Assembly: GCA_022649665.1 (NCBI GenBank) | Contig: JALCOL010000002.1 | Span: 62,001-126,000, forward strand | Direction of reading: 5' to 3' | Length of the DNA stretch: 64,000 nucleotides | Origin: Enterococcaceae bacterium | Lineage (GTDB): Bacteria > Bacillota > Bacilli > Lactobacillales > Enterococcaceae | Shown: positions 6,058 to 55,494 of the stretch, one piece after another | Layout: the number at the start of each line of letters is the position of its first letter | How positions within the stretch are numbered: the first letter of the stretch is position 1 | Made by a program: the position numbers and the translations under genes | The notes under the pieces: generated by a model | Database searches by the model: none | Told to the model about the DNA's origin: nothing | Seen by the model: the letters and a program-made list of their open reading frames with translations, nothing else

Positions 6058-6271
6058 AAAAAAGCTCCTTTGAAGATTAGAATGATTCTTTAAACAAAAT
6101 AACTTTCCAAATAAACGACATTTTGATTTGATATGTTGTTTATCCCACAATTTTTGATTTTTGCTGATTGATATTTTTGTGATTTCTTTTTAAAATGAAC
6201 AGTAGTATTATATCAGACAGTTAGTATCTTATTCAACATTGTGTTGCTTTACATAAGTGGGAGGAAAACAA

Positions 6272-9200
6272 ATGACTTACCAAGCAGGAATCGACGTTGG
6301 CTCTACCACCGTGAAACTAGTGATCCTGGATGAACAGCAAACCCCGCTTTTTTCTAAATATGAACGGCATTTTTCTGACGTAAAAGAAGCGAGCCGCAAG
6401 ATTTTGAAAGAGGCTCAAGCAGTTGTCGGCGATCATCCGCTCCAAATGATGATCACCGGCTCAGGCGGGATGGGACTGGCAGAAACGCTTGCGATCCCTT
6501 TTGTCCAAGAAGTGATCGCCTGCACGCGGACCGTCGAGGAACTGATCCCGGAGACGGATGTCGTGATCGAGCTCGGCGGGGAAGACGCGAAGATCACTTT
6601 TTTTGACGGCGCGCTCGAACAACGCATGAACGGGACTTGTGCCGGCGGGACTGGTGCTTTTATCGATCAAATGGCCTCGCTTCTAAAGACAGATGCCAAT
6701 GGTGTCAATGAACTGGCTAAAAATTATCAGACGATCTATCCGATCGCCTCGCGCTGCGGAGTGTTTGCGAAAACCGATGTCCAGCCGCTGATCAATGAAG
6801 GGGCTGCCAAAGAAGATATCGCTGCCAGCATTTTTCAAGCGGTCGTCAATCAAACGATCGCCGGACTGGCGGCCGGCCGCAAGATCAAAGGAAAAGTCGC
6901 CTTTTTGGGCGGCCCGCTCTATTTCATGTCGGAGCTCCGTCAGCGTTTTATTGAAACGCTCGATCTGGCGCCTGACGAAGTGATCTTTCCGGAAAATCCG
7001 CAATTGTTCGTTGCGCTTGGTGCAGCTTTTTATGCTGAAGAAGCTGCGGAAACAACGCTCGGGACCTTGCTCAAAAACCTTTTGGAGAACAGCCAGACGC
7101 ACTTGACGCCGGCGGATACGCTGCCGCCGCTTTTTTCAAGCGATGCTGAGCTGGCAGAATTTCGCAAACGCCATAACGAAGCGCAAGTTGCCCGCAAACC
7201 GCTCGCTGAGCACCACGGGGCTGCTTATTTAGGGATCGATGCCGGCTCGACGACGACGAAAGTCTGCTTGATCGATGAAGCGGGCAATCTTTTGTTTGAC
7301 TATTACGGCAATAACGAAGGACAGCCGCTGGAAACCACGATGGGCGTTTTAGCGAGTCTTTATGACGAGATGCCAAAAGACGTTTATATCGCCAAAACAT
7401 GTGTCACCGGTTACGGGGAACAATTGATCAAACATGCACTCAAGATCGATCTGGGTGAAGTCGAAACGATGGCCCACTATAAAGCAGCCGAATTTTTCCA
7501 GCCGGGTGTCGATTTCATTTTAGATATCGGCGGACAGGACATGAAAGCCATGACGATCAAAGGCGGCGCGCTGTCTTCGATCCAGTTGAATGAAGCCTGT
7601 TCTTCAGGCTGCGGTTCCTTTATCGAAACATTTGCCCAGTCGCTGAAATATTCAGTCGAAGATTTCGCGGAAGCTGCACTCCATTCAGCACATCCGGTCG
7701 ATCTGGGATCGCGCTGCACGGTCTTCATGAACTCCAAAGTCAAACAAGTGCAAAAGGAAGGCGCGCAAGTCGGTGATATCTCAGCCGGGTTATCCTATTC
7801 TGTCATTAAAAATGCGATCTATAAAGTCATCAAGATCCGCCGCCCGGAAGAGCTGGGCGAGAAGATCGTCTGCCAAGGCGGCACATTTTACAATGAAGCG
7901 GTTCTGCGGGCTTTTGAGCTGGTCAGCGGTCGCGAAGTGGTCCGTCCTTCGATCGCGGGTTTGATGGGAGCGTTCGGGGCAGCCTTGATCTCTTTGGATC
8001 ATGCGGAACTGGGCGACACGACGACTCTTTTGGATCAAGGCGAATTAGAGAATTTCGACAGCGAAAAAGAATTCACTCACTGCGGAAAATGCGAAAATAA
8101 TTGCATGCTGACAGTGACGATTTTTTCCGACGGCCGCAAATTCATTACCGGCAACCGCTGCGAACGCGGGGCGGATATCAAGATCGACAAGCAGAACCGC
8201 AAGATCAATCTGGTCGATTACAAATATAATCGCCTCTACAAATACCGTCCGCTTGCTAAAAACAAAGCGATCCGCGGCGAGATCGGGATCCCGCGGGTCC
8301 TCAATATGTATGAGAATTATCCGCTGTGGTTCACTTTCTTTACGGAACTGGGATTTCGGGTCGTTTTGAGTCCGCGTTCCAATAAAGATCTTTATGAACA
8401 CGGGATGGATACGATCCCGAGCGATACCGCCTGCTATCCGGCGAAGATCACGCACGGTCATATCCAAGCGTTGATCGACGAAGGCGTGCCGCTGATTTTT
8501 TATCCGGGCGTTGTTTTTGAACGAGTCGAATCTTCCGGCGCGGATAACCATTTCAATTGTCCGATCGTGCAGAGCTATCCGGATGTCATCAAGAACAACG
8601 TCGATGATATCCGTGCCGGCAAAGTCGACTACCGCAATCCGTATATCAATTTGGCAGATGAAGTGTCAGTCGCACGCGTGCTGAGCGAAACGTTCGCTGA
8701 TCTGGAGATCCCGCAAGAAGAGATCGCTAAGGCGCTTCATCACGGGTACGCGGAGTTGGACAGTTTCAAGGATAAGATCCGCAAAAAAGGCGAAGAGACG
8801 TTGGCACGGATCCAAGAGACCGGCCAGCGCGGGATCGTTTTATCCGGCCGCCCGTATCATTTGGATCCTGAGATCAATCACGGGATCGCTGACGTGATCG
8901 TGCAGGAAGGCTTCCATGTTTTGACAGAAGACTCGATCTCGCATTTGGAAAATGTCGGCGACTTGCGGGTCGTCAATCAATGGGTCTATCATTCACGGTT
9001 ATATGCGGCGGCACGTGTCGTTGCAAAAATGAAGAATTTGGAACTGGTCCAGCTGAATTCGTTCGGCTGCGGCTTGGACGCCGTCACGACGGACCAAGTC
9101 GAAGAGATCATGGAACAATACGGCAAGATCTATACAGTCCTCAAGATCGATGAAGGCTCGAATTTGGGCGCGATCCGGATCCGGCTGCGCTCGCTAAAAG

Positions 9201-10522
9201 CCGCGGTTGATGAACGGGCGAAAAAAGATTTCATACCGGCAAAGCGTTTTGACGAACCGGCCAAGATCATTTTCACTAAAGAAATGCGGAAAAAACATAC
9301 GCTTTTGATCCCGATGCTGAGCCCGATCCACCAAGACCGGCTGCTTGACACCGCACTGAAAGCTTCCGGCTACAATGTCGTCAATCTGGCGACGATGGAC
9401 CGGGAAGCCGTCAACGTCGGCTTAAAATTCGTCAATAACGATGCATGCTACCCGGCGATCATCTCGATCGGCCAATTGATCGAGGCGCTCCAAAGCGGGA
9501 AGTATGATCCGCGCAATACCTCGGTCATGATGACTCAGACTGGCGGCGGCTGCCGGGCGACCAATTATATCCCGCTCCTGCGCAAAGCGCTCCAAGATGC
9601 CGGCTTCGGCAAGATCCCAGTCGTCAGCATCTCACTGGGCAACAAAGGAGTCGAACAAAACCCGGGATTCAAATTTACTTTGCCGCTGGCGAAACGTGCG
9701 GCTTTGGCATTTATCTACGGCGACTTGTTTGAGCGCGTCGTTTACCGGACGCGCCCGTACGAAGTGGAAAAAGGGGCTGTCGATCGCTTGCATGACAAGT
9801 GGCTCGAGCGGATTCAGCCGAGTATCAAAAAGGGTTCTTATACACAGTTTGTCCGCAACATGAAAAAAATCATCGCAGATTTTGATACAATCCCGCTGCG
9901 CGACATTCAAAAGCCGAAAGTCGGCGTAGTCGGCGAGATCTTAGTAAAATACTCGCCAACTGCTAATAATGACATCGTGCGTCTGCTGGAAGAAGAAGGC
10001 GCCGAGGCGGTCGTGCCGGACATCGTCGGCTTCATGAACTATTCGCTTTACAATCAGATCTGGAAATATGAAAATCTGGGAATGCCGAAAAAGAGCAAAA
10101 TGCTGGCCGAATTCGCGATCAAAATGATCGAACTGCTTGAAAAACCGATGGATAATGCGCTGCGCGCTTCGAAGCGTTTCAACGGGATCCATTCGATCTA
10201 TGAGCTGGCGGACGGGGCGAGCAAAGTGCTTTCGATCGGGAACCATACCGGTGAAGGCTGGTTTTTGACCGGCGAGATGATCGCGCTCCTGAAAGAAGAT
10301 GTCCACAACATCGTCTGCATGCAGCCGTTTGGTTGCCTGCCGAATCACGTTGTCGGCAAAGGAGTGATCAAAGAATTGCGTCATCAATATCCAAAAGCAA
10401 ATATTTCACCGATCGACTATGATCCGGGGGCTTCGCTAGTCAATCAGCTGAACCGGATCCGCTTGATGATGGCGACCGCGAAAAAAGAATTGAAAGCATC
10501 CGAAATGCTGCTTGAGAAATAA
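6272..10522 (+). CDS. Fused 2-hydroxyacyl-CoA dehydratase activase-like protein (two BcrA/BadF ATPase domains, DUF2229 and dehydratase-like C-terminus)
   Basis: 1416 residues, the usual size of this large fused family. Domain 1 (about 4-255) and domain 2 (about 318-570) are ASKHA-type ATPases of the BadF/BcrA/HgdC kind, with phosphate loops [10 protein letters not shown] and [10 protein letters not shown] and the cluster-binding Cys signatures [28 protein letters not shown] and [15 protein letters not shown] motif follows near residue 595, then the DUF2229 region and a C-terminal part with NNDACYPA and GGGCRATN, resembling dehydratase subunits. Family members use ATP to drive one-electron activation of radical dehydratases. 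No separate HgdA/HgdB genes are nearby, so substrate is unknown. ATG at 6272 follows GGGAGG; an upstream GTG at 6257 is less likely. Confidence 0.88.
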
Positions 10523-43607: not shown

Positions 43608-43660
43608 TAAAAACAGCGAATTTCTTTTGTCTGAGTGCAAGAGAAGTTCGCTGTTTTTTA
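43608..43660. terminator. Terminator between DUF554 and LysR genes
   Basis: AAACAGCGAA.TTCTTTT pairs with AAGAGAA.TTCGCTGTTT followed by a T run; shared by convergent genes. Confidence 0.8.
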
Positions 43661-44602
43661 TTGCAGGCTGGTTTTTATTTGATCTTTTGCTGAAAGGCTG
43701 GAACCGCCCACTGAAGCTTTGACGATCTTGATAAAATTGAGGACTGCAGGATCATAATCGTTTTTCCAAATACAATCGATTTTGAAGTAATTTTCAAAGC
43801 CGTTCAGCTTGATAAACACAATATCATCGGAAATGTAGCGGCGCAAGTGACCGGCAAAGATCGATACGCCGATGCCGCTTTTGATCATCAAAAGAATCGT
43901 ATTCAAAGTAGAATTCGGTTCATAAGTGATTTTAGGAGTGATCTTTTTCTTTGCAAAGATATCGGTCAAGATCGTAACATCAGGGACAATAAAATTCTGA
44001 CCAGCAGCCTCTTCGAGATCGATTGTCTTGCGTTTGCACAATGGATTTTCTTTATTGACTGCCAAGTACATGCTGTCGCGCGAAAAGACAAGTTTATCGA
44101 GTTCGGGATAGCCTTTGACATCATCTTCTGGGAAAAAAGCGATATCCACGCTGTTGTCGATCAATAGATCATTGATATTGACTAATGGATAATCGGTCAT
44201 ATGGAGTGTGACGCTCGGATAAAGCGACTTAAACTGTTTGATGATCGCCGGAAGTTGATTTAAAACTGCTGTTCCGAGCATTGCGATGCTGAGAGAGGCC
44301 TGCTTTTTTGTGCTGATCTGCTGGGCATCCTCAATGATCGTGAGCAGATCGACCGTATTCGCATGGACCTTCTCCTGCAAAAAGGCACCCGCTGGTGTTA
44401 AACTGACTTTTCTTTTATTTCGGACGAATAACTTGACTTGGATCTCATCTTCAAGGCGAGCGATCAATTTACTCAAATTCGGCTGTGTGGTATGCAGCTT
44501 TGCTGCGGCATTCGTAAAATTAAGTGTTTCAGCTAATGTCAGAAAAGCGATCGCTTGATTGGTGTTGATGTTTGGAACGGCATTTAATTCCAACGTTTGC
44601 AT
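43658..44602 (-). CDS. LysR family regulator of the oxidoreductase/Ptb-Buk cluster
   Basis: 314 residues. N-terminal winged HTH (about 15-75) with FLTLAETLNFTNAAAKLHTTQPNLSKLIARLEDEI, followed by a substrate-binding domain of the usual LysR size. AGAGGAG precedes the ATG. Transcribed away from the flavoprotein/oxidoreductase cluster across a 430-base gap that holds two matching dyads near its own promoter, so control of that cluster is likely. The inducer would be the pathway substrate or an intermediate. Confidence 0.9.
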   Translation of the reverse strand: MQTLELNAVPNINTNQAIAFLTLAETLNFTNAAAKLHTTQPNLSKLIARLEDEIQVKLFVRNKRKVSLTPAGAFLQEKVHANTVDLLTIIEDAQQISTKKQASLSIAMLGTAVLNQLPAIIKQFKSLYPSVTLHMTDYPLVNINDLLIDNSVDIAFFPEDDVKGYPELDKLVFSRDSMYLAVNKENPLCKRKTIDLEEAAGQNFIVPDVTILTDIFAKKKITPKITYEPNSTLNTILLMIKSGIGVSIFAGHLRRYISDDIVFIKLNGFENYFKIDCIWKNDYDPAVLNFIKIVKASVGGSSLSAKDQIKTSLQ

Positions 44603-45032: not shown

Positions 45033-45983
45033 ATGAAGGTGCTTGGGATTTCTTTTGGAACAAAAAATGGAACGAATGATTCACTATGCATCGAAGCGTT
45101 GATGGGAGCACAAGAAGCCGGGGCAGAGATAGAGTTTATCCAGATGTCGAAATTGAATATCCAACATTGTACGGGCTGCTGCACTTGTTCCAAAACACTG
45201 CTATCAGGAAAAGGGAATATGTGTATTTTGAAAGATGATTTCGAGTGGCTGCTGGATAAAATGTTGGATGCGGATGGCATCATCATTTGCGATCCGATAT
45301 TTGAAGAAGGGGCTTCGGGATTGTTCCATACGATCACCGATCGCTTTGGACCACGGATGGATCGCGGCAATAATATCATCGGACAAAAGATCGCTGCGGC
45401 GACTGGCGGAAAAATGAGCGATCCGCGGATCATCCAAGATCGGGTGATTTCCTACATGGGGATTGGCGGATCCGATTGGGGGACCCGAGTCCAGTGTGAG
45501 CACGCGATGCAAGCATTGACACCGATGTGGAAAGTGATCGATAACAAATGGTTCCCATGGGCAAAAAGCGTCATCATGGATGATACGCGGCTGGCAGAAG
45601 TCCACCAAGTCGGTGTGAATATCGCCGCAGCGGCAAAAGATGTGAATGCAGCAGAATATCAGGGCGAGGCCGGTTTTTGTCCGCATTGCCATAACAAGTT
45701 ATTTTATCTTGACGCGGCACACAATCAAGCGACCTGTGCACAGTGCGGGATCGTTGGAAAAATCGTATTTGAAAATGGGAAAATGACTTTCAAATTCGCA
45801 GAAGAAGAATTGCAAAAAGCTCATGATACACTTCCAGGAAAATTTATTCACGGAAACGATATCAAAAACCGCATTGAAGGCGAATTTGCAAAAGTAGCCA
45901 AAACGCCGGAGTTCAAGGCGCGAAAGAAACAATATAAAGATTTTATCAAAGCCGTGAACCCAAAAAAGAAAGTAACAGCATGA
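45033..45983 (+). CDS. Iron-sulfur-flavoprotein-like reductase with C-terminal zinc ribbon
   Basis: 316 residues. N-terminal flavodoxin-like NAD(P)H:FMN reductase domain (1-190) with ISFGTKNGTNDSLCIEAL as FMN loop. A Cys cluster HCTGCCTCSK then NMC near residues 47-67 resembles the Isf [4Fe-4S] motif, but with a longer final spacing. The C-terminal region (about 210-245) has CPHC and CAQC pairs forming a rubredoxin-like zinc ribbon, unusual for the family. Likely a cytoplasmic electron-transfer flavoprotein; partner ferredoxin and oxidoreductase are encoded downstream. First gene of the cluster. The specific reaction is unknown. Confidence 0.8.
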   Translation: MKVLGISFGTKNGTNDSLCIEALMGAQEAGAEIEFIQMSKLNIQHCTGCCTCSKTLLSGKGNMCILKDDFEWLLDKMLDADGIIICDPIFEEGASGLFHTITDRFGPRMDRGNNIIGQKIAAATGGKMSDPRIIQDRVISYMGIGGSDWGTRVQCEHAMQALTPMWKVIDNKWFPWAKSVIMDDTRLAEVHQVGVNIAAAAKDVNAAEYQGEAGFCPHCHNKLFYLDAAHNQATCAQCGIVGKIVFENGKMTFKFAEEELQKAHDTLPGKFIHGNDIKNRIEGEFAKVAKTPEFKARKKQYKDFIKAVNPKKKVTA

Positions 45984-45993
45984 GGTGAAAAAA

Positions 45994-46449
45994 ATGGAAT
46001 TGCGCAAAGAGCAGATCATTATTTTGAATGTGGTCAACAATCTTCCGCTGGCGATCGCGATCACAACAGTCGCCCCGGCATTGGCAAATATCAAAATCGG
46101 GCTCGCAGGATGGCTTATCAATGTTGCGATCGCATTCTTCGTCGCTTGTTTGGTCAATTTCGTATTTCCGATTCCGCAGATTGCTGAGCGTTTCCCGCGG
46201 ATCTTTCACTTGGATCCAAAAAAATTCAGCGGGAGACTGGTTGCCAATCTTCCAATCAATTTGTTGTTTGTTTTAACGATCGGGCTTATTTCCAATCTGT
46301 ACAATGTAAGGGCTTTCCCGGACTTTGTATTTGCTTTTCTAGCTACTTTCCTGCCGATTTATGTAATTACGTTCGTTCTCTCGATGATTACCAATCCGAT
46401 CGCGCAAAAACTGGCCTTTCGCGAATTGGACTCATCCGAGGCTAAATAA
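45994..46449 (+). CDS. Four-helix membrane protein, DUF2798-like
   Basis: 151 residues, four membrane helices in two similar halves (NNLPLAIAITTVAPALANIK and VANLPINLLFVLTIGLISNL begin each half), as in DUF2798. ATG at 45994 follows GAGGTGA; GTG 45985 is an alternative. No known activity. Lies 10 bases after the flavoprotein gene, so co-transcribed. Confidence 0.65.
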   Translation: MELRKEQIIILNVVNNLPLAIAITTVAPALANIKIGLAGWLINVAIAFFVACLVNFVFPIPQIAERFPRIFHLDPKKFSGRLVANLPINLLFVLTIGLISNLYNVRAFPDFVFAFLATFLPIYVITFVLSMITNPIAQKLAFRELDSSEAK

Positions 46450-46491: not shown

Positions 46492-47331
46492 TTGACGTAC
46501 GAATTTCGGCCAATGCGAAGCGTCATTTATGTCGATGTAATAAAAGAAAAATATCGTCACAAACTTCTTCATTGGCTTTATGGACATCATGTCCCTGACA
46601 GTATCTCGAAATTTGGACCTTATGTAACAAAATATGCTTTTTATGCAGCTTTTCCAGTTCCGCCAGACGGCGAGCGATTCGGTACGCGAAAAATGCAGAT
46701 GACAGAACATTATTGGCTGATCAATGAAATGACGCCTGAAATGCGGAACAATGCATTAACGGAATATATGCCGAAAAATGTGCTGCGCTGGCAAGGAAAC
46801 CTTCCCGATGTCGATGAAGCTTGCGAAGGGAACGTCGACGGGGATGAGGGCCGCAGCTGCAGCGGCGAAGAAGGCTGCGAACCGTTCATCTTTGCACATG
46901 TGCCGATTTGCTGGGAAGAAGATTACAAAGGGAAAGGACGGACCGTCAATGATGGACCGAATTATCGCTGGCAGTTCGTGCTTCGTTATCCTGAAGGGAT
47001 CTCGGTCGAAGAAGGCGAGAAGTGGTTTCACGAGGTGATCGTGCCGTATTTTATGAACCGCAAAGAAGTCATCCGCTTTATGTCGAGCCGGATCATGAAT
47101 GATGTGGTCGGCTGTCCTTATCACCGCTTAGTCGAGATGTGGTTTGACTCCCCTGACGAGTGGCATGCGGCGGCTGTCGAAGGAACAAAAGAAATGAAAG
47201 CTCCGTCTTGGGCACAAGAAAAAGAATTTCCGTTCTTGAAGCCGCAGTTCAATATTGCCGGAATGTTTCTTCCAGATATCCCGACAAGCGACAACCTTGC
47301 GCAGTATCGCGGATATATCACCATGCGTTGA
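46492..47331 (+). CDS. EthD-like dimeric alpha/beta-barrel protein with two halves
   Basis: 279 residues. Two ferredoxin-like (dimeric alpha/beta barrel) halves appear: residues about 5-100 (SVIYVDVIKEKYRHKLLHWLYGHHVPDSI) and about 155-245 (QFVLRYPEGISVEEGEKWFHEVIVPYF, then MSSRIMNDV and VEMWFDSPDEWHAAAVEG, as in EthD/muconolactone isomerase-like folds). Between them is an acidic Cys-bearing insert (CEGN...CSGEEGC). TTG start follows AGAGGAG. Family members are small catabolic enzymes or lyases; the reaction here is unknown. Confidence 0.6.
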   Translation: MTYEFRPMRSVIYVDVIKEKYRHKLLHWLYGHHVPDSISKFGPYVTKYAFYAAFPVPPDGERFGTRKMQMTEHYWLINEMTPEMRNNALTEYMPKNVLRWQGNLPDVDEACEGNVDGDEGRSCSGEEGCEPFIFAHVPICWEEDYKGKGRTVNDGPNYRWQFVLRYPEGISVEEGEKWFHEVIVPYFMNRKEVIRFMSSRIMNDVVGCPYHRLVEMWFDSPDEWHAAAVEGTKEMKAPSWAQEKEFPFLKPQFNIAGMFLPDIPTSDNLAQYRGYITMR

Positions 47332-47421: not shown

Positions 47422-48117
47422 GTGGATGTCGTCAAATCATTTCATTTAGAAGAAAAACGCTGCTTTACATTTATCGGTGAAGCTGGTTCGGGAAAAAGTG
47501 AGATCGCGATCAATTTTGCAAAAATATTGAGAAAAAAAACAAAAAAAGAAATCCACTTTTTTGATTTCGATATGTCAAAACCGTTATTTCGTGCTCGCGA
47601 AGCGCAAAAAGAGTTAGAGTCTGCGGGGATCAGCGTTCATTTCGAAAAACAATTCATGGATGCACCGACACAAGTTGGCGGGCTTATCAGCTGTCTCAAA
47701 GAGAAAAATCATTTGGTTGTTTTGGATGTCGGCGGCGACGCGGTCGGTTCCCGCGCGATCGGCGGCTTTGCAAAATGGCTGAATGCGGAATATTCGCTCG
47801 TTTACTTTGTCATCAATCCTTACCGCCCCTGGTCAAGTGATCTCCGGCACATCGATGAAACACTTGGCTCGATCTTGCGCGTGACCCATCTTCAGTTTGA
47901 AAAGCTGCATCTCATCAGCAATCCGAACTTGGGGATCACGACCCGTATCGGGGACGTTGTCAGCGGTCACCGCAAATTGAAAAAGAATCTTGAAAGTCAT
48001 CTGCCGATCGATTTTTTATGTGTAAAAGAGGAATTGGCAGGTCAGCTGGAAGACGTCGGAACGGTGCCGATCTTACCCTTGAAATTGGCACTTTCTTATG
48101 AATGGACAGCAAAATGA
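47422..48117 (+). CDS. P-loop ATPase associated with the 2-oxoacid oxidoreductase
   Basis: 231 residues. Walker A GEAGSGKSE near residues 19-27 (no deviant Lys of the MinD type), Walker B LVVLDVGGDAVGS near residue 97, and CINPYRPWSSD-like segment VINPYRPWSSDLRHID. Not assigned to a characterised family; its position directly before ferredoxin and oxidoreductase genes suggests a maturation, activation or regulatory role. GTG start after AGAGGGGGG. Confidence 0.6.
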   Translation: MDVVKSFHLEEKRCFTFIGEAGSGKSEIAINFAKILRKKTKKEIHFFDFDMSKPLFRAREAQKELESAGISVHFEKQFMDAPTQVGGLISCLKEKNHLVVLDVGGDAVGSRAIGGFAKWLNAEYSLVYFVINPYRPWSSDLRHIDETLGSILRVTHLQFEKLHLISNPNLGITTRIGDVVSGHRKLKKNLESHLPIDFLCVKEELAGQLEDVGTVPILPLKLALSYEWTAK

Positions 48118-48337: not shown

Positions 48338-48381
48338 AAAGCGAGCAGGTCGTTTGAATGAATTTAGGAGGCACAATGATT

Positions 48382-49485
48382 ATGGCAAGAGTATTTATGA
48401 AAGGCTGCGAGGCGATCGCGGAGTCCGCTGTGCGCGCAGGATGCCGATTTTTTGCCGGGTATCCGATCACACCGCAAAATGAAATTCCGGAATATTTTGC
48501 ACGGCGGCTTCCTGAAGTGGGCGGAAGCTTTGTACAAGGAGAATCGGAAATCGCATCAGTCAATATGGTGTACGGCGCTTCATCAGCCGGGGTGCGCGCA
48601 ATGACTTCTTCCTCGAGCCCCGGGATCTCGTTAAAAAGCGAAGGGATCTCATATTGTGCTGCAGCACGGATCCCAATCGTCTATGCGAATATCTCTCGCG
48701 GCGGACCAGGGGTAGGATCGATCCAGCCCGCGCAGATGGATTATCTGCAGGCAACGAAAGCTTCAGGGAACGGCGGCTTTGAAATGATGGTTTTTGCGCC
48801 GTCTTCCGTTCAAGAAGCCGTCGATCTGACATATCAAGCATTTGAATATGCTGATCGAGATCGTAATCCGGTTTTGATTTTGGCGGACGGGGTCATCGGT
48901 ACGATGATGGAGCCGGTGGTTCTTCCCGAGATGATCGCGGAAGACAAAATCAAGAAAATTCAAGAAGATAAAAAGAAATGGGCATGTGTCGGGCATCCGC
49001 TAGATTATCAAAAGCGTTCATGGATCCAGCCGGGACAATGGCAAACCAGTGAAATGCAGAAAGTCAACGAAGAAGCCGAAAAGCTTTATGATTCGTGGAA
49101 AAATGACGAAAAGTGGGAAAGTTATTTAGCAGATGATGCCGAGATCATCTGTACCGCTTATGGGATCAGTGCACGGATCGCTAAATCGGTCGTGCGGGAA
49201 CTTCGCAGTCAAGGGATCAAAGCCGGACTGATCCGGCCGATCACGGTTCATCCATTTCCAAATGAAGCATATGAGCAGTTGAATTATGATCAGGTGAAGG
49301 CTGTTTTGGATATCGAAATGTCGATCCCGGCTCAATTTGTTCAGGATGTCCGTTCTGCAGTCAAGGGCCGTTGTCCGGTTGAGACGTGTCTTTGTTCAGG
49401 CGGGAATATCATGAAAAAAGAAGAGATCGTCCGGGCAATCAAAAATTTAAGCGGAAAGGAAGAAAACCATGAAACAACTATATAA
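48382..49485 (+). CDS. 2-oxoacid:ferredoxin oxidoreductase alpha subunit
   Basis: 367 residues. Starts MARVFMKGCEAIAESAVRAGCRFFAGYPITPQNEIPEY, the hallmark of the VorB/KorA alpha subunit; then SEIASVNMVYGASSAGVRAMTSSSSPGISLK, and a C-terminal transketolase-like domain II from about residue 240. Oxidatively decarboxylates a 2-oxoacid with CoA, passing electrons to ferredoxin. ATG 48382 fits the family start and AGGAGG at 48366-48371; 48376 is possible. Substrate class (branched-chain, 2-oxoglutarate, aryl) cannot be set from sequence alone. Confidence 0.9.
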   Translation: MARVFMKGCEAIAESAVRAGCRFFAGYPITPQNEIPEYFARRLPEVGGSFVQGESEIASVNMVYGASSAGVRAMTSSSSPGISLKSEGISYCAAARIPIVYANISRGGPGVGSIQPAQMDYLQATKASGNGGFEMMVFAPSSVQEAVDLTYQAFEYADRDRNPVLILADGVIGTMMEPVVLPEMIAEDKIKKIQEDKKKWACVGHPLDYQKRSWIQPGQWQTSEMQKVNEEAEKLYDSWKNDEKWESYLADDAEIICTAYGISARIAKSVVRELRSQGIKAGLIRPITVHPFPNEAYEQLNYDQVKAVLDIEMSIPAQFVQDVRSAVKGRCPVETCLCSGGNIMKKEEIVRAIKNLSGKEENHETTI

Positions 49486-50221
49486 ACGGACTGAAACGAT
49501 CCAAGAAGACAAAGTTTCAGGTTTTTGCCCGGGATGCATGCACAGTACGGCAATCAAATTGATCGGTGAAGTGTTGGAGGAGCTCCATCAAGTCGATAAG
49601 GCAGTCTGTGTCTTGGGGATCGGCTGCTGCGGGCTTCATATGGATTATATCGCCTACGATAATATCACCGCACCGCATGGACGAGCCTGCGCAGTTGCGA
49701 CTGGGATCAAAAAAGCCAGCAAAGATTCACTGGTCTTCACTTATCAAGGAGATGGGGATTTTGCGTCGATCGGTTTAGCGGAATCGGTCTTTGCAGCAAA
49801 CCGCGGGGAAAATATTACGGTGATTTTTATCAACAATGGGATCTACGGAATGACCGGCGGACAAATGGCGCCGACGACTTTGATGGGAATGAAAGCAACC
49901 ACCGCGCCGAACGGCAGAAACGCTGCAGAACACGGATATCCGATGCACATGTGCGAAATATTGAATCAGCTCACTGCGCCGGCCTATCTGGTAAGAACGA
50001 GCTGCGATACGCCGCAAAATGTTTTGAAAACAAAACGTGCGATCAAAAAAGCTTTTAAAAATCAAATCCAAGGAAAAGGCTTCTCGATGGTTGAGATCGT
50101 TTCAAATTGCCCGACAAACTGGGGAATGGATCCGCTCGCCTCACTAAAATTCGTCGAGGATAAAATGATGAAGGAATATCCTTTAGGAACGATTCGCGAC
50201 AAAAAGAAAGAAGGGGCTTGA
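49469..50221 (+). CDS. 2-oxoacid:ferredoxin oxidoreductase beta subunit (TPP-binding)
   Basis: 250 residues. CPGCMHSTAIKLIGEVLEEL near residue 20, thiamine diphosphate motif GDGDFASIG ... NNGIYGMTGGQMAPTT, and a cluster-type Cys region GIGCCGLHMDY. Binds TPP and forms the active site with the alpha subunit. Overlaps alpha by 17 bases and gamma by one base, indicating tight coupling. Lacks the long C-terminal domain of pyruvate:ferredoxin oxidoreductase. Confidence 0.9.
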   Translation: MKQLYKRTETIQEDKVSGFCPGCMHSTAIKLIGEVLEELHQVDKAVCVLGIGCCGLHMDYIAYDNITAPHGRACAVATGIKKASKDSLVFTYQGDGDFASIGLAESVFAANRGENITVIFINNGIYGMTGGQMAPTTLMGMKATTAPNGRNAAEHGYPMHMCEILNQLTAPAYLVRTSCDTPQNVLKTKRAIKKAFKNQIQGKGFSMVEIVSNCPTNWGMDPLASLKFVEDKMMKEYPLGTIRDKKKEGA

Positions 50222-50793
50222 TGATGGAGACCAATATTTGTATCGCGGGATTCGGCGGTCAAGGAGTAATGTCATTCGGCAAATTTTTGGCGATCGCGAC
50301 TTGCGACTCGACAGACAAAAAAGTTACCTTTTTTCCGTCTTATGGTGCAGAACAACGTGGCGGAACCGCGAACTGTTTTGTCGTGATCTCGGATGAAGAA
50401 ATCGGGGCGCCGCTGGGGGATTCGATGGATGCTTTGGTGGCACTGAATGAACCTTCTTATCATAAATTTGAAAAAATCGTCAAGCCGCGCGGCACGATCT
50501 TTATCAACAGTTCGATCATCAAAGATATCGAAAACCGCGAGGACATCACGCTGATCGGCGCACCAGTTACTGAAATGGCCCTTGCATTGGGAAATCTGAA
50601 GGTGCTGAACGTGATCATGCTTGGCGTATACATCGGCTATACACGCGTGATCGATCCTGTGATCATCTGGCAGACGATCGAACATAAACTGGCCAAAAAA
50701 CCAAAGCTGCTTCCTTTAAATAAAAAAGCATTTGAAGAAGGCTTGAAGTTTGGGATGAAAAGCCGGGAGGAAATCAAAAATGAAATCGTTTAA
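50221..50793 (+). CDS. 2-oxoacid:ferredoxin oxidoreductase gamma subunit
   Basis: 190 residues. GFGGQGVMSFGKFLAIA at the N-terminus and SYGAEQRGGTANCFVVISDEEIGAP mark the gamma (domain III) subunit. ATG at 50221 overlaps the beta stop (TGATG) with AAGGGG upstream; ATG 50224 is an alternative. It completes a four-subunit enzyme (delta-alpha-beta-gamma order). Confidence 0.9.
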   Translation: MMETNICIAGFGGQGVMSFGKFLAIATCDSTDKKVTFFPSYGAEQRGGTANCFVVISDEEIGAPLGDSMDALVALNEPSYHKFEKIVKPRGTIFINSSIIKDIENREDITLIGAPVTEMALALGNLKVLNVIMLGVYIGYTRVIDPVIIWQTIEHKLAKKPKLLPLNKKAFEEGLKFGMKSREEIKNEIV

Positions 50794-51706
50794 AAATTTT
50801 GAAGATTTGATCCGGCAAGTGAAAACCAAACCGCAAAAGAAAAGAATGGCGATCGCAGCAGCTGCTGATCAGCATATCATCGAAGCGGCAGTCCGTGCGC
50901 AGCAAGAACAAGTCGCAGAGCCGATCCTTGTGGGCAATAGAGAAAAAATCACAGCGCTTTTCAAAGAGAACCGGCTTGCTTCCTCCGCTTTTCCAATAAT
51001 TGACGCAGAAAAACCCTCCGAAGCAGCCGAAAAAGCGGTGGCATTGGTGAAGAGTGGGGAAGCTGACTTTTTGATGAAAGGGATGCTCGATACCAAAGTC
51101 TTTTTAAAGGCAGTCGTCAATAAAACAGATGGTTTGGGACAAAAGCGGACAATGTCGCATTTTGCATGGTTCGAAGTCCCCGGATATCCAAAATTACTGT
51201 CGGTGGTCGATGGCGGGATGGTCATGTATCCAGATTTAGAGCAGAAAAAAGAGATCATTGAAAATACTGTCAATACTTTGCGGACACTTGGCTATGGCGA
51301 GCCGAAAGTCGGCGTGCTGGCATGTGTCGAAAAAGTAAATCCGAAGATGCCGGAAACACTCGAAGCGGCTGCTCTTGCCGCAATGAACCAAAATGGCCAG
51401 CTCGCACATTGCATTGTCGAAGGACCGATTTCATTTGATTGTGCTTATAGTGCGGAAATCGCCGCGATCAAACACTATAAAAGCCGAATTGCCGGCGATG
51501 TCGATATTTTGCTGGCTCCGAATATCCATGCGGGCAATATCATGGGAAAAATGCTGACATGCATCAGCAAAGCAAAAATGGCCGGCTTTGTCGTTGGCGC
51601 TGCATGTCCGATTATTTTGACTTCGCGCGGAGCGACCAGTGAAGAAAAATATCTCTCGATCGTAGTCGCGGCGGCAGCAAGCAAAGGGGAAGGTGAAGCG
51701 AAATGA
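50780..51706 (+). CDS. ptb: Phosphate acyltransferase (phosphate butyryltransferase family)
   Basis: 308 residues. Family features include MAIAAAADQHIIEAAVRAQ near residue 23, ADFLMKGMLDTKVFLKAVVNK, HFAWFEVPGYPKLLSVVDGGM and the C-terminal VGAACPIILTSRGATSEEKYLSIVVA. Converts acyl-CoA plus phosphate to acyl phosphate. Overlaps the gamma gene start-to-end and the kinase gene by four bases. Its acyl-CoA would come from the oxidoreductase. Confidence 0.93.
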   Translation: MKSFKNFEDLIRQVKTKPQKKRMAIAAAADQHIIEAAVRAQQEQVAEPILVGNREKITALFKENRLASSAFPIIDAEKPSEAAEKAVALVKSGEADFLMKGMLDTKVFLKAVVNKTDGLGQKRTMSHFAWFEVPGYPKLLSVVDGGMVMYPDLEQKKEIIENTVNTLRTLGYGEPKVGVLACVEKVNPKMPETLEAAALAAMNQNGQLAHCIVEGPISFDCAYSAEIAAIKHYKSRIAGDVDILLAPNIHAGNIMGKMLTCISKAKMAGFVVGAACPIILTSRGATSEEKYLSIVVAAAASKGEGEAK

Positions 51707-52797
51707 CTTACAAGATTCTGGCGATCAATCCGGGTTCGACTTCAACAAAAATCGCGGTCTTTGCCGATGAAGAGCTGCTCTTTTCAGCGAACGTCACCCA
51801 TTCTGATCAAGATCTGGAAAAATATCCGCGGATCAGCGACCAATTTGCGATGCGAAAGAAGTATGTTCTGCATGCGCTAGCGGCTCATAAGATCCCCTTG
51901 AAAAGTCTCTCAGCGATCGTTGGAAGAGGTGGACAATTAGTCAACATTCACGGGGGCGGTTATCTGGTGACAGAAGCAATGAAAAAAAGGCTCGGAGATC
52001 CGGCAACGGTGGAGCATGCTTCCAATTTAGGAGCACTGATCGCCGCTGCGATCGCTGAACCGCTGGGAATACCAGCTTATATTTATGATGCTGTCGGTGC
52101 AGATGAAATGGAGCCGATCGCCAAAGTCACCGGGTTTCCGGAGATCGTCCGCGAAAGCTTCTGCCACGTCTTGAACTCGAAAGCGATGGCGCGAAAAGCA
52201 GCGCTTCAACTGGGGAAAACCTATCAAACAGCGGATTTCATCGTCGCCCATCTGGGAGGCGGTATTTCCATCAGCGCTCATCAGCACGGTCGGATCATCG
52301 ATGTGATCACCGCTGACGGCGGACCATTTTCACCGGAAAGATCGGGGAGCCTCCCGCTGCATTATCTGGCAGATATGTGTTTCAGCGGAAAATATTCCTC
52401 TGGTGAAATCAAGCAGAAAATTTCAGGAAACGGCGGTGTAAAAGCTTATTTTGGAACCGCTGATCTGCGCAAGATCGAGCAACTGATCGAGACGGGGGAC
52501 CAAAAAGCGCAATTGGTGTTCGACGCTTTAGCTTACCAAGTAGCGAAAGGGATCGGCGAACTTTCCCCGGTATTAAAAGGAAAGATCGATGCCATCATTT
52601 TAACGGGGGGAGCAGCTTACTCAAAGAGGCTGGTTGATAAAATTGAACGATCTGTGCATTTTCTGGCACCGGTGACCGTTCTTCCAGGAGAAAACGAACT
52701 GGAGTCATTAGCACAAGGCGCTTTGCGGATCTTGCGCGGGGAAGAGACTGTAGAACCGTATCAAGAAAAGAAAAAGGAGGAAAAGGCATATGCCTGA
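51703..52797 (+). CDS. buk: Butyrate/branched-chain acyl kinase
   Basis: 364 residues, acetokinase fold. ATP-binding NPGSTSTK near residue 10, VGRGGQLVNIHGGGYLV, IVAHLGGGISISAH and DGGPFSPERSGSLPL, with Buk-type C-terminus ITGGAAYSKRLV-like LTGGAAYSKRLV. Transfers phosphate from acyl phosphate to ADP, giving ATP and a short acid. ATGA overlap with ptb. With the oxidoreductase it makes a substrate-level phosphorylation route. Confidence 0.93.
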   Translation: MTYKILAINPGSTSTKIAVFADEELLFSANVTHSDQDLEKYPRISDQFAMRKKYVLHALAAHKIPLKSLSAIVGRGGQLVNIHGGGYLVTEAMKKRLGDPATVEHASNLGALIAAAIAEPLGIPAYIYDAVGADEMEPIAKVTGFPEIVRESFCHVLNSKAMARKAALQLGKTYQTADFIVAHLGGGISISAHQHGRIIDVITADGGPFSPERSGSLPLHYLADMCFSGKYSSGEIKQKISGNGGVKAYFGTADLRKIEQLIETGDQKAQLVFDALAYQVAKGIGELSPVLKGKIDAIILTGGAAYSKRLVDKIERSVHFLAPVTVLPGENELESLAQGALRILRGEETVEPYQEKKKEEKAYA

Positions 52798-54178
52798 AGA
52801 TACTTTTTATGCGAAAGGAAAAGGCAATAACGGGTTTATCAAAAACCTTGACGTTTGCGATTTCAATCAGCTGGATGGCGAATGCGGCATGTTCCAAATG
52901 GCGCTTTACCGGACAACGAGCGGAAAATATTATTTGTACGGCTGCTGCTTTGGCGGTACCAAAAGCGGTGTGATGATCACTGATGTCAGTGATCCCTACC
53001 ATACAAAATTTGTGAAGTACTTCCAATTAGTCGACCCGCAAGAATATCCGACAACGACATCACCGAAGCTTCAGATCGCTGATGACTTGATGATCGTCGC
53101 GATGAGTGCCGGAAGCGGACCAGATGCTTTAGTCGGCAATCAAGATCTGACCAATGTCAAATGCGAAACGGGGATTCGCATCTATAGTTTGAAAAAAGAT
53201 CCGGAAAATCCTGAATTTTTGAGTTATTGGGATTGCGGTGTGCCGCATTCGATCGGGGTTCACCGCTTCATGTACAACGGCGGCCGATATGTCCATTTGT
53301 CCGCAGAATGCCGCGGTTTTGAAGGGATGATCTATCGAATCATCGATATTATCGATCCAAAGAACCCCAAAGAAATCGGCCGCTGGTGGGCACCGCATCA
53401 ATATGCGGATGGCTTTCCGGGACGCACTTTCGATCCATCTGCGCCGCATGTTCCGGCATTTATGGATAAAGGGTGGATGCACGGGCCGCCATTTGTGGTC
53501 GGCGACAAAGCCTATTTAGGGTATTCCGGCGATGGATTATATGTTTTGGACGTTTCTGACGTGACACGGCCGAAGTGCCTGGGAAATCTCCATTTGCATC
53601 CGCCATTCGGCAGTGAATTAGCCGGCGCACGTACGCACACTGCCTTGCCGCTTCCTGGTCGCGATCTGGTAGTCGTTACAAATGAAGGCGAACGATTCCA
53701 ATTTTTCGGCAAAGGACAGATCCAGCATCCGCAAGCGATGAACAATCTGCATATGGTGGATGTCAGTGATCCAACGCGACCGACGCTGATCGCCGAATTT
53801 CCGTATCCAGAAGTCCCGAAAGATTTTCCATATCCGAATTTCAATGTGATGCAGCTTGACGCTGCCGGTCCATTTGGTCCGCATAATGTGCATGAACCGA
53901 TGAGCGGCAAACCTTGGCTCGAACAGCGCGGCGACCGGGTCTATTGCTGCTACTTCCATGCGGGGCTAAGGATCTACGATGTCTCTGATCAGTATTATCT
54001 GAAAGAGATCGCTTATTTCATTCCGCCAAATCCGAATAAGAAACCCGAAGACTCCTTTTTCCCAGATTTTAAAGGACCGCGCAATGCAACAACGGAGGAT
54101 TGCATCGTTGATGACCGGGGGTTTATCTTTATCGATGCGCTGGATGATGGCTTTTATGTTTTGAAAATGAAGAATTAA
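52790..54178 (+). CDS. LVIVD-repeat beta-propeller protein
   Basis: 462 residues, no signal peptide. Repeats of the LVIVD type: V-x-I-T-DVSDPYHTKFV, RIIDIIDPKNPKEIG, LYVLDVSDVTRPKCLG, LHMVDVSDPTRPTLI and LRIYDVSDQYYLKEI, each a D-V/I-S-D blade edge, so a beta-propeller is expected. Several Cys, His, Asp residues lie in the loops (HTALPLPGRDLVVVTNEG and GPHNVHEP). Function unknown; in other bacteria such genes occur near degradative genes, which fits here, but the reaction is not known. Overlaps buk by eight bases. Confidence 0.8.
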   Translation: MPEDTFYAKGKGNNGFIKNLDVCDFNQLDGECGMFQMALYRTTSGKYYLYGCCFGGTKSGVMITDVSDPYHTKFVKYFQLVDPQEYPTTTSPKLQIADDLMIVAMSAGSGPDALVGNQDLTNVKCETGIRIYSLKKDPENPEFLSYWDCGVPHSIGVHRFMYNGGRYVHLSAECRGFEGMIYRIIDIIDPKNPKEIGRWWAPHQYADGFPGRTFDPSAPHVPAFMDKGWMHGPPFVVGDKAYLGYSGDGLYVLDVSDVTRPKCLGNLHLHPPFGSELAGARTHTALPLPGRDLVVVTNEGERFQFFGKGQIQHPQAMNNLHMVDVSDPTRPTLIAEFPYPEVPKDFPYPNFNVMQLDAAGPFGPHNVHEPMSGKPWLEQRGDRVYCCYFHAGLRIYDVSDQYYLKEIAYFIPPNPNKKPEDSFFPDFKGPRNATTEDCIVDDRGFIFIDALDDGFYVLKMKN

Positions 54179-54264: not shown

Positions 54265-55494
54265 ATGAAATTCAACAGATGGGTCTATGCATCTATTGGT
54301 GTAATCATTCTGCTCTTTTCTGGTCTCGTCTATGCATGGAGTGTGATCGCGATCCCGATCAAAGCATATTTTTCAAATTGGACAAATGCGCAGCTTTCCT
54401 TGACCTTTACGCTTTGCATGATCTTCTTTTGTATTTCGGGAGTATTTTCGGGCCTGCTGTCGCATAAGATCAGTCCGCAAAAAAAATTATTATCGGCAGC
54501 GGTACTTTTTTTGGTCGGCTTTTGGATCAGTTCACAAGCGGAATCGTTGCCCGCACTATATTTGGGCTACGGTGTTTTGGCGGGGACAGCTTCAGGGGTC
54601 GCTTATAACACGACGATCAGTACGGTCACGGCCTTGTTTCCAGATAAGCCGGGCATTATTTCTGGAATTCTTTTGATGGGATTTGGATTGGGAAGTTTTT
54701 TGATCGGCAAAATTTACCAGCGCTTCACTTTGCCCGGTGCCGGATTTCGCCGATCGCTCTTGATTTTTGGAATCGTGCTGTTTATCGTGATCGCTCTCAG
54801 CAGTTTCTTGCTGCCGAAAGAAACGATTCAAAAAAACCAGCTGCAAGCCGGAAAAAATACTGAGAAGGGATTTACTCCTCAGCAAATGCTGAGAACAAAA
54901 ACTTTTTGGTACTATTTTGTTTGGGCAACACTTTTAAGCGGTGCCGGATTGATCCTGATCTCTCAAGCTGCGAATATTGCGGCCCAAGTTTCGGCAGGGA
55001 TATCTGCGGGGCTCTTAAGCACGATCGTTGGTTTGATTTCTATTGCTAATGGAGCTGGCAGAGTTTTTTTTGGATACTTATTTGATCAAGTCGGCCAAGA
55101 ACGAACGATACGGATCATTGAACTCATATTTGCAGTCGGCATTCTGTTCTTGATGATCACGCTGAGGAGTCATCACGATAGTTTGATGATCGCCAGCTTT
55201 ATCTTTGGCGGATTTGCTTATGGAGGGATCACACCTACTAATGCTGCTTTTATCGAATCCGCATTTGGAAGAAGATCTTTTCCGATCAATTTTTCCTTAA
55301 TTAATTTAAATTTAGTCATCTCGTCTTTTTCAAGTACATTTTCAGGAAAATTAGCCGATGCGACTGGATCATATTTTTTGATATTAGTATGTATGGCAGG
55401 AATGGTTTTGATTGGAAGTTTCTTTGGGCAAGGCGTTAAAAAGCGTGCTGCAGCGGTAGATATGTCTCCTCAGGCGAATGAATATAAAGGATGA
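54265..55494 (+). CDS. OFA-family MFS transporter (oxalate/formate antiporter type)
   Basis: 409 residues, 12 predicted membrane helices. N-terminus NRWVYASIGVIILLFSGLVYAWSVIAIPIK and GFGLGSFLIGKIYQ and the second-half GAGRVFFGYLFDQVGQERT are typical of OFA transporters of small carboxylates. Likely imports the pathway substrate or exports its acid product. ATG preceded by a weak site. Downstream of the terminator but co-directional with the cluster. Confidence 0.87.
   Translation: MKFNRWVYASIGVIILLFSGLVYAWSVIAIPIKAYFSNWTNAQLSLTFTLCMIFFCISGVFSGLLSHKISPQKKLLSAAVLFLVGFWISSQAESLPALYLGYGVLAGTASGVAYNTTISTVTALFPDKPGIISGILLMGFGLGSFLIGKIYQRFTLPGAGFRRSLLIFGIVLFIVIALSSFLLPKETIQKNQLQAGKNTEKGFTPQQMLRTKTFWYYFVWATLLSGAGLILISQAANIAAQVSAGISAGLLSTIVGLISIANGAGRVFFGYLFDQVGQERTIRIIELIFAVGILFLMITLRSHHDSLMIASFIFGGFAYGGITPTNAAFIESAFGRRSFPINFSLINLNLVISSFSSTFSGKLADATGSYFLILVCMAGMVLIGSFFGQGVKKRAAAVDMSPQANEYKG

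Follow-up and report, generated by a model that had tools for sequence, protein, structure and literature searches.

A chalcone isomerase operon with a candidate auronol-cleaving beta-propeller protein in a bacterium of the family Enterococcaceae

The window analysed here, a stretch of 64,000 nucleotides from an Enterococcaceae genome, carries a gene that almost certainly encodes a bacterial chalcone isomerase (CHI), a type of enzyme known for opening plant flavonoids. It was identified by homology and has a predicted catalytic activity. The operon around it proved more interesting than the gene itself. We propose, with a probability of about 0.5-0.55, that the operon encodes an energy-conserving flavonol pathway in which a beta-propeller protein of the LVIVD family would be the cleaving enzyme.

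Chalcone isomerase and its lid segment

The CHI reading frame codes for 279 amino acids and begins with a TTG codon downstream of an AGGAG-like site. It aligned with its closest homologues from the first residue onward. Chalcone_N was the sole Pfam family listed at E<=1 (E 1.4e-56, 189.6 bits against a curated cut-off of 25). In a sequence search of the PDB the only strong relatives were chalcone isomerase entries from E. ramulus (4d06, 3zph, 4d4f and 8b7u), with E values of 1e-89 to 1e-91 over residues 3-279. An AlphaFold2 model built with 24 sequences (pLDDT 88.2, pTM 0.87) had E. ramulus CHI as its top Foldseek match (TMq 0.92, 46% identity), followed by monooxygenase-like proteins, chlorite dismutases and coproheme decarboxylases at E 7e-7 or weaker. 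The catalytic residues His33, Asp36 and His73, whose roles are discussed for E. ramulus CHI in the part of PMC9694015 covered, were all kept in the alignment. Membership in the family is thus indicated by the Chalcone_N score, by full-length homology and fold, by the catalytic residues and by the position of the lid.

According to excerpts of PMC9694015, E. ramulus CHI is built of two ferredoxin-like domains, and residues 106-130 form its lid. The window protein, homologous to it over the full length and with about 46% of residues identical when the structures are aligned (3zph, 4d06, 8b7r), has the same two domains, lid and catalytic residues. It differs in a more acidic lid with two extra cysteines and, unlike the E. 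ramulus entry, it lies in an operon with genes for a 2-oxoacid:ferredoxin oxidoreductase (KOR), a phosphate acyltransferase (PTB), an acyl kinase (BUK) and the LVIVD protein. It is a fresh member of a known family and ordinary in itself.

A preliminary description of this DNA had read the protein as EthD-like, with an acidic, cysteine-containing insert that may bind a metal or a cluster, and had suggested that it produces a 2-oxoacid. Part of that reading stood. The reading frame is real, the insert with three cysteines is present at residues 105-131, and structure prediction with a fold search returned the two ferredoxin-like halves. The fold was right and the family wrong, because homology, fold and the three catalytic residues are those of CHI and EthD was absent from the Pfam matches. 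The insert corresponds to the known CHI lid. It contained three cysteines and ten Asp or Glu residues, and the same segment in seven compared homologues contained none or one cysteine and four to seven acidic residues. Across the 24 aligned sequences Cys111 and Cys123 occurred in the window CHI alone (1/24 each) and Cys129 in 9/24, so that a conserved metal or Fe-S cluster site in the lid is not supported. The candidate of an EthD-like protein that makes the 2-oxoacid through such an insert was rejected: its fold halves and its insert do exist, but Chalcone_N as the only family, the solved structures of chalcone isomerases as relatives and the poorly kept lid cysteines leave it next to no credibility. 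The protein itself is not expected to form a 2-oxoacid. Should the operon yield one, its release would fall to an enzyme acting further along, for which the LVIVD protein is the most likely candidate.

Operon layout

The features are listed in Table 1. On the plus strand the genes follow each other in the order FLR, membrane protein, CHI, P-loop protein, KOR alpha, beta and gamma, PTB, BUK and LVIVD, and the MFS gene follows after 86 bp. From KOR alpha through LVIVD, consecutive genes overlap by 4-17 bases. Judged by this spacing, the operon genes probably form one transcript. A scan for promoters and terminators was uninformative (19 and 20 sites against 16.3 and 15.1 in shuffled sequences). 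The preliminary description had placed the CHI gene between a flavoprotein (45033-45983) and an oxidoreductase (48358-50793); both are real, with the small membrane protein and the P-loop protein as the immediate neighbours of CHI.

Table 1. Features of the chalcone isomerase operon, with positions in the window.
Feature	Position	Strand	Basis
LysR-type regulator, divergent, candidate operon regulator	43658..44602	-	ORF; named by sequence appearance
Flavone reductase (FLR) homologue, FMN enzyme	45033..45983	+	PDB 7d38, Pfam FMN_red
Small predicted membrane protein	45985..46449	+	ORF
Bacterial chalcone isomerase (CHI)	46492..47331	+	Chalcone_N, PDB homology, Foldseek
Acidic Cys-containing segment, CHI lid, residues 105-131	46804..46884	+	Alignment to homologues, E. 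ramulus lid 106-130
P-loop ATPase-like protein, KOR companion	47422..48117	+	CbiA-like 4.9e-05, below cut-off
2-oxoacid:ferredoxin oxidoreductase alpha (VorB-type), candidate arylpyruvate oxidoreductase	48358..49485	+	NF005507
2-oxoacid:ferredoxin oxidoreductase beta	49469..50221	+	TPP_enzyme_C 2.8e-21
2-oxoacid:ferredoxin oxidoreductase gamma	50218..50793	+	POR 1.3e-33
Phosphate acyl-(butyryl-type) transferase PTB	50780..51706	+	PTA_PTB 1.5e-46
Butyrate-kinase-family acyl kinase BUK	51703..52797	+	TIGR02707
LVIVD beta-propeller protein, candidate auronol (alphitonin)/diketone hydrolase	52790..54178	+	LVIVD, AlphaFold2, co-occurrence
MFS transporter, lactate / oxalate-formate type, candidate product exporter or substrate importer	54265..55494	+	NF049980

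The FLR homologue matched PDB 7d38 over its full length (E 1.8e-133, residues 1-312), sequence divergence being the sole difference compared. We take this entry, titled Cd1, to be the flavone reductase FLR of PMC7862272. KOR alpha passed the model of the VorB subfamily (NF005507, 439.3 bits, cut-off 399) and BUK that of butyrate kinase (TIGR02707, 471.5 bits, cut-off 289.1). PTB fell below the phosphate butyryltransferase equivalog TIGR02706 (E 1e-95, 320.3 against 410.5) and scored above NF006045 (295.9, cut-off 282); by its sequence it is clearly a member of the PTA_PTB family. The MFS protein remained below the cut-off of NF049980 (E 1.7e-73, 247.5 against 320), and its homologues occurred in 6 of the 70 CHI loci described below. 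A LysR-type homologue 50% identical to the window regulator lies near CHI in locus L001, with weaker matches near other CHI loci. The small membrane protein had no Pfam match above cut-off and had homologues near CHI in 11/70 loci. Searches of NCBIfam, Pfam and the PDB yielded weak matches only for the P-loop protein. Its homologue was found in all eight of the 70 loci with KOR alpha and also in the longer stretches L101 and L103, and none was seen in the three loci with an indolepyruvate-type oxidoreductase (L002, L004, L005). It may be a maturation or activation factor of KOR. Elsewhere in the window, at 6257-10522, a 1421-aa protein resembles by sequence a fused acyl-CoA dehydratase activase/dehydratase.

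LVIVD protein and chalcone isomerase loci in other genomes

The protein encoded downstream of BUK scored 38.6 bits against the Pfam family LVIVD (E 6.7e-10, cut-off 20.2). Its AlphaFold2 model was mostly beta (pLDDT 87.2, pTM 0.90), and the best Foldseek E value was to a phosphotriesterase, the haloalkylphosphorus hydrolase of Sphingobium TCM1 (5hrm, E 2.4e-16, TMq 0.62). A VIA-align comparison with 5hrm gave Z 28.4 over 361 residues at 3.0 Å rmsd. Because many WD40 proteins, among them non-enzymatic propellers, tied with 5hrm in that comparison, assigning a function from the fold alone was dropped. The PDB sequence search returned weak matches only. His158, His231, His283, His365 and Glu299 were invariant over 32 family members. 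Four distant LVIVD proteins, 22-30% identical, all retained His158, His231, His283 and Glu299, and one of them retained His365. One histidine of 5hrm fell on the invariant His231 in the PDB profile alignment, and the two proteins share the beta-propeller, but they are only 15-18% identical and 5hrm acts on another substrate. The conserved histidines and glutamate may form a metal centre in the LVIVD propeller.

Seventy CHI loci were collected by a genome scan with patterns of the window CHI; distant CHIs are under-sampled because the patterns were built from that protein. Neighbours were counted at thresholds of at least 35% identity and 20% coverage for LVIVD, 35% and 45% for FLR, and 55% identity for KOR alpha. 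An FLR homologue was present in 53/70 loci (54 in an earlier count with other thresholds) and an LVIVD homologue in the locus stretch of 52/70. LVIVD was on the same strand as CHI in 50 of these 52 loci, and the gap between the two genes had a median of 78.5 bp. Where at least 4.5 kb was available on both sides (42 loci), LVIVD and FLR were each found 34 times. Grouped at 85% identity, the CHIs fell into 13 clusters, 10 with LVIVD, 11 with FLR and 5 with KOR or the indolepyruvate-type enzyme (IOR). No LVIVD gene was seen in the stretches of the other 18 loci, eight of which have at least 4.5 kb on each side. For four of the eight (L033, L035, L036 and L065) the genome carries an LVIVD gene elsewhere, L036 being counted through a species record in common with L017; L007, L008, L016 and L028 lay outside the genome search.

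At the level of genomes, an LVIVD homologue was found in 26/26 CHI genomes searched (25 chosen for variety from the 70 loci, and the window genome), the best copy being 40-77% identical outside the window genome itself. A sample of 391 genomes was drawn from the class of the CHI carrier G102, on which it was centred and which is in it by construction. LVIVD occurred there in four genomes and CHI in six, and all four LVIVD carriers had CHI (Fisher p 1.6e-8; 1.0e-6 without G102). Two of the six CHI carriers, G284 (59% CHI) and G347 (32% CHI), were without any LVIVD homologue. Among 299 Bacilli genomes an LVIVD match at E<=0.001 was found in 15, and the close LVIVD subfamily in the window genome only. 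The proteins of the 14 other carriers were 25-35% identical and their genomes gave no Chalcone_N match, which indicates that CHI is accompanied by the close subfamily and not by LVIVD at large. As side observations, the Flavonifractor genome G102 has three LVIVD copies (L081, L084 and L085), two of them in tandem. Small-protein clusters also recurred near CHI, one (e.g. L046:12441-12974) in 27/70 loci with a scanned member assigned to DUF1097, and a second, of proteins of about 166 aa, in 28/70; both are possibly membrane proteins for transport.

Within a set of 97 genomes around and including the window genome, a set that holds no second genome of its genus and no Agrilactobacillus yilanensis, CHI was found in the window genome only. 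Lateral acquisition of CHI by this lineage is therefore likely, as an interpretation of this distribution. The closest CHI, 78% identical, is that of A. yilanensis. Two MAGs titled Leptolinea (L004, L005) carry CHI, FLR, LVIVD, IorA, PTB and BUK, with CHIs 71-72% identical to that of the window. Leptolinea is a genus of Chloroflexota, and this gene set seems to cross phyla.

The link to a 2-oxoacid oxidoreductase, pointed out in the preliminary description, recurred near the homologues when these were collected with their neighbours: KOR or IOR was present in 11/70 CHI loci, eight of which also had PTB or BUK, and in two longer stretches. Copies of KOR alpha 75-77% identical to that of the window lie 3-11 kb from CHI in G102, G103, G104, G107, G121 and G242 (L010, L011, L013, L020, L103 and L101). 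The longer stretches, L103 (G121) and L101 (G242), hold FLR, CHI, LVIVD, PTB, BUK, the P-loop protein and KOR together, with KOR alpha 11.0 kb and 5.7 kb from CHI, respectively. A PorA-like upstream gene in L067 (22%) was left out of the KOR count; the KOR of that locus lies beyond the flank and was seen in L103. Three loci (L002, L004 and L005) had IorA in the place of KOR, between LVIVD and PTB/BUK. KOR alpha matches of 29-30% in these loci were not counted as KOR, and IorA was searched for instead. Against TIGR03336 (cut-off 650.9) the IorA of L004 passed with 674.2 and that of L002 was just below with 640.2; that of L005 was assigned by its similarity to L002 alone (77%). KOR of the window clade (E<=1e-110) was found in 5 of the 391 class genomes, three of the five being CHI carriers (p 2.0e-5; 7.8e-4 without G102). 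Nine of 30 CHI genomes gave no KOR match at 60% identity or more, and A. yilanensis (G097) had none at E<=1e-60. In A. yilanensis the second gene after CHI (L001:12275-13246) belongs to the lactate dehydrogenase family (267.8 against TIGR01771, below its cut-off of 303.55) and could be a candidate arylpyruvate reductase that forms an aryllactate.

Proposed flavonol route and its alternatives

In the proposed route a flavonol such as quercetin would be reduced by FLR to the dihydroflavonol, which CHI would open by means of His33 to an alpha-hydroxychalcone or diketone that closes to the auronol alphitonin. The auronol or the diketone would then be hydrolysed by the LVIVD protein. In this hydrolysis a metal bound by the conserved His and Glu residues of the protein would activate a water molecule to attack the carbonyl adjacent to the phloroglucinol ring, and phloroglucinol and an arylpyruvate would be released. 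KOR would decarboxylate the arylpyruvate oxidatively to arylacetyl-CoA with reduction of ferredoxin, PTB and BUK would convert arylacetyl-CoA to the arylacetate with formation of ATP, and the acid may leave the cell through the MFS protein. The enzyme identities of the first two steps have strong homology to characterised enzymes behind them, and the cleavage by LVIVD and the substrate of KOR, PTB and BUK are our extrapolation from gene content and conserved residues.

Published work bears on several of these steps. CHI converts taxifolin to alphitonin (the part of PMC9694015 covered). In the portions of PMC11170127 covered, Goris and Braune report that quercetin is converted to 3,4-dihydroxyphenylacetate by Catenibacillus decagia and to 3,4-dihydroxyphenyllactate by Catenibacillus scindens, and they give 3,4-dihydroxyphenylpyruvate, released together with phloroglucinol from alphitonin, as the hypothetical common intermediate. 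For E. ramulus and C. decagia, this quercetin/taxifolin/alphitonin route has been proposed with the same intermediates and products as here; the same portions of that paper assign no enzyme to the cleavage or to the conversion of arylpyruvate to arylacetate, steps for which the window gives named candidates. C. scindens is described there as degrading flavonols although it lacks a CHI of the E. ramulus kind, and a flavonol route may thus also operate where this CHI is missing. This weighs against the proposed role of CHI, as do, for LVIVD, the 18/70 loci in whose stretches it was not seen and the two of six CHI carriers of the class sample without a homologue. In the open-access literature searched we found no assignment of an alphitonin-cleaving enzyme and nothing relevant that links LVIVD to flavonoids, and as far as that literature shows the arrangement of the operon is undescribed.

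The neighbourhoods with KOR and IOR fit an arylpyruvate intermediate. Indolepyruvate oxidoreductases act on arylpyruvates, and the IorAB route, which turns aromatic amino acids into arylacetates, includes the oxidative decarboxylation of arylpyruvates. IorA genes lie beside LVIVD, PTB and BUK in L002, L004 and L005; the window differs in having a three-subunit KOR of the VorB type, whose arylpyruvate would come from a flavonol. Against an arylpyruvate as substrate stand the scores of KOR alpha for VorB, a branched-chain 2-oxoacid enzyme, and of BUK for butyrate kinase, the fact that most loci have neither KOR nor IOR near CHI, and the 9 of 30 CHI genomes that lack a KOR copy reaching 60% identity.

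The same two scores suit a different arrangement, in which CHI belongs to the classic route for flavanones, with FLR, CHI and an enoate reductase acting in turn before the dihydrochalcone is hydrolysed, and KOR, PTB and BUK form an unrelated, co-transcribed module for fermentation of branched-chain keto acids. CHI is indeed called the first step of flavanone degradation in the text of PMC9694015 covered. The window genome contains two OYE-family frames, of 718 aa (G000:C1:137004-138044) and 704 aa (G000:C4:81390-82547), which could be enoate or flavanone-cleaving reductases and make a second, flavanone route possible. However, phloretin hydrolase (PHY, PF18089), which was found in 9/26 CHI genomes including F. 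plautii (G099) as a positive control, had no match in the window genome (G000). Moreover, C. butyricum needs no CHI to cleave flavanones, and the authors of that study connect bacterial CHI with the conversion of flavanonols to auronols (PMC11868195, in the part covered). Taken together, the missing hydrolase and the CHI-free flavanone cleavage of C. butyricum make CHI with LVIVD point to flavonols. The recurrence of the same KOR clade, or of IorA in other lineages, beside CHI and LVIVD also speaks against an unrelated module, and we regard that arrangement as rather unlikely.

The LVIVD protein might instead bind or isomerise flavonoids, for example as an auronol or dihydroflavonol epimerase, with another enzyme cleaving alphitonin. 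Beta-propellers are versatile, many non-enzymatic ones match the model equally well, and the CHI neighbourhoods of other genomes include numerous unannotated gene clusters. The retention of His158, His231, His283 and Glu299 in LVIVD proteins of 22-30% identity nevertheless fits a metal-dependent enzyme, the best Foldseek E value was to a hydrolase, and no other protein of the window operon resembles a C-C hydrolase; a non-cleaving LVIVD protein is accordingly unlikely. A further reading would have PTB and BUK use butyryl-CoA derived from the phloroglucinol ring, with KOR supplying or consuming ferredoxin for that branch. It would agree with the family names of PTB and BUK and with phloroglucinol as a product of quercetin C-ring fission (according to the section of PMC7710108 covered), but none of the ten scanned operon proteins was recognised as a phloroglucinol-ring enzyme. 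By established chemistry KOR requires a 2-oxoacid, which degradation of the ring does not obviously supply. We consider this use of the ring quite improbable.

For the flavonol pathway as a whole, we see roughly an even chance that LVIVD is the missing auronol (alphitonin) or diketone hydrolase, a propeller metallohydrolase of new specificity, and that the operon is a complete, horizontally spread module for gaining ATP from flavonols. In this module KOR, IOR or, perhaps in A. yilanensis, a reductase of the lactate dehydrogenase type would be interchangeable as the last enzymes. Such exchange would explain why dihydroxyphenylacetate is excreted by some bacteria and possibly dihydroxyphenyllactate by others.

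In the parts of PMC11170127 covered, C. decagia ends its breakdown of quercetin, which follows the route known from E. ramulus, with 3,4-dihydroxyphenylacetate, and the intermediate that follows alphitonin was still termed hypothetical in 2024. The unassigned propeller and the energy genes of the operon may jointly account for the conversion of quercetin and other flavonols to phenylacetic acids by anaerobes. The operon names candidate genes for every remaining step and predicts an ATP yield from flavonols. It could also supply a gene that marks flavonol degraders in metagenomic data, a purpose for which CHI by itself may not suffice.
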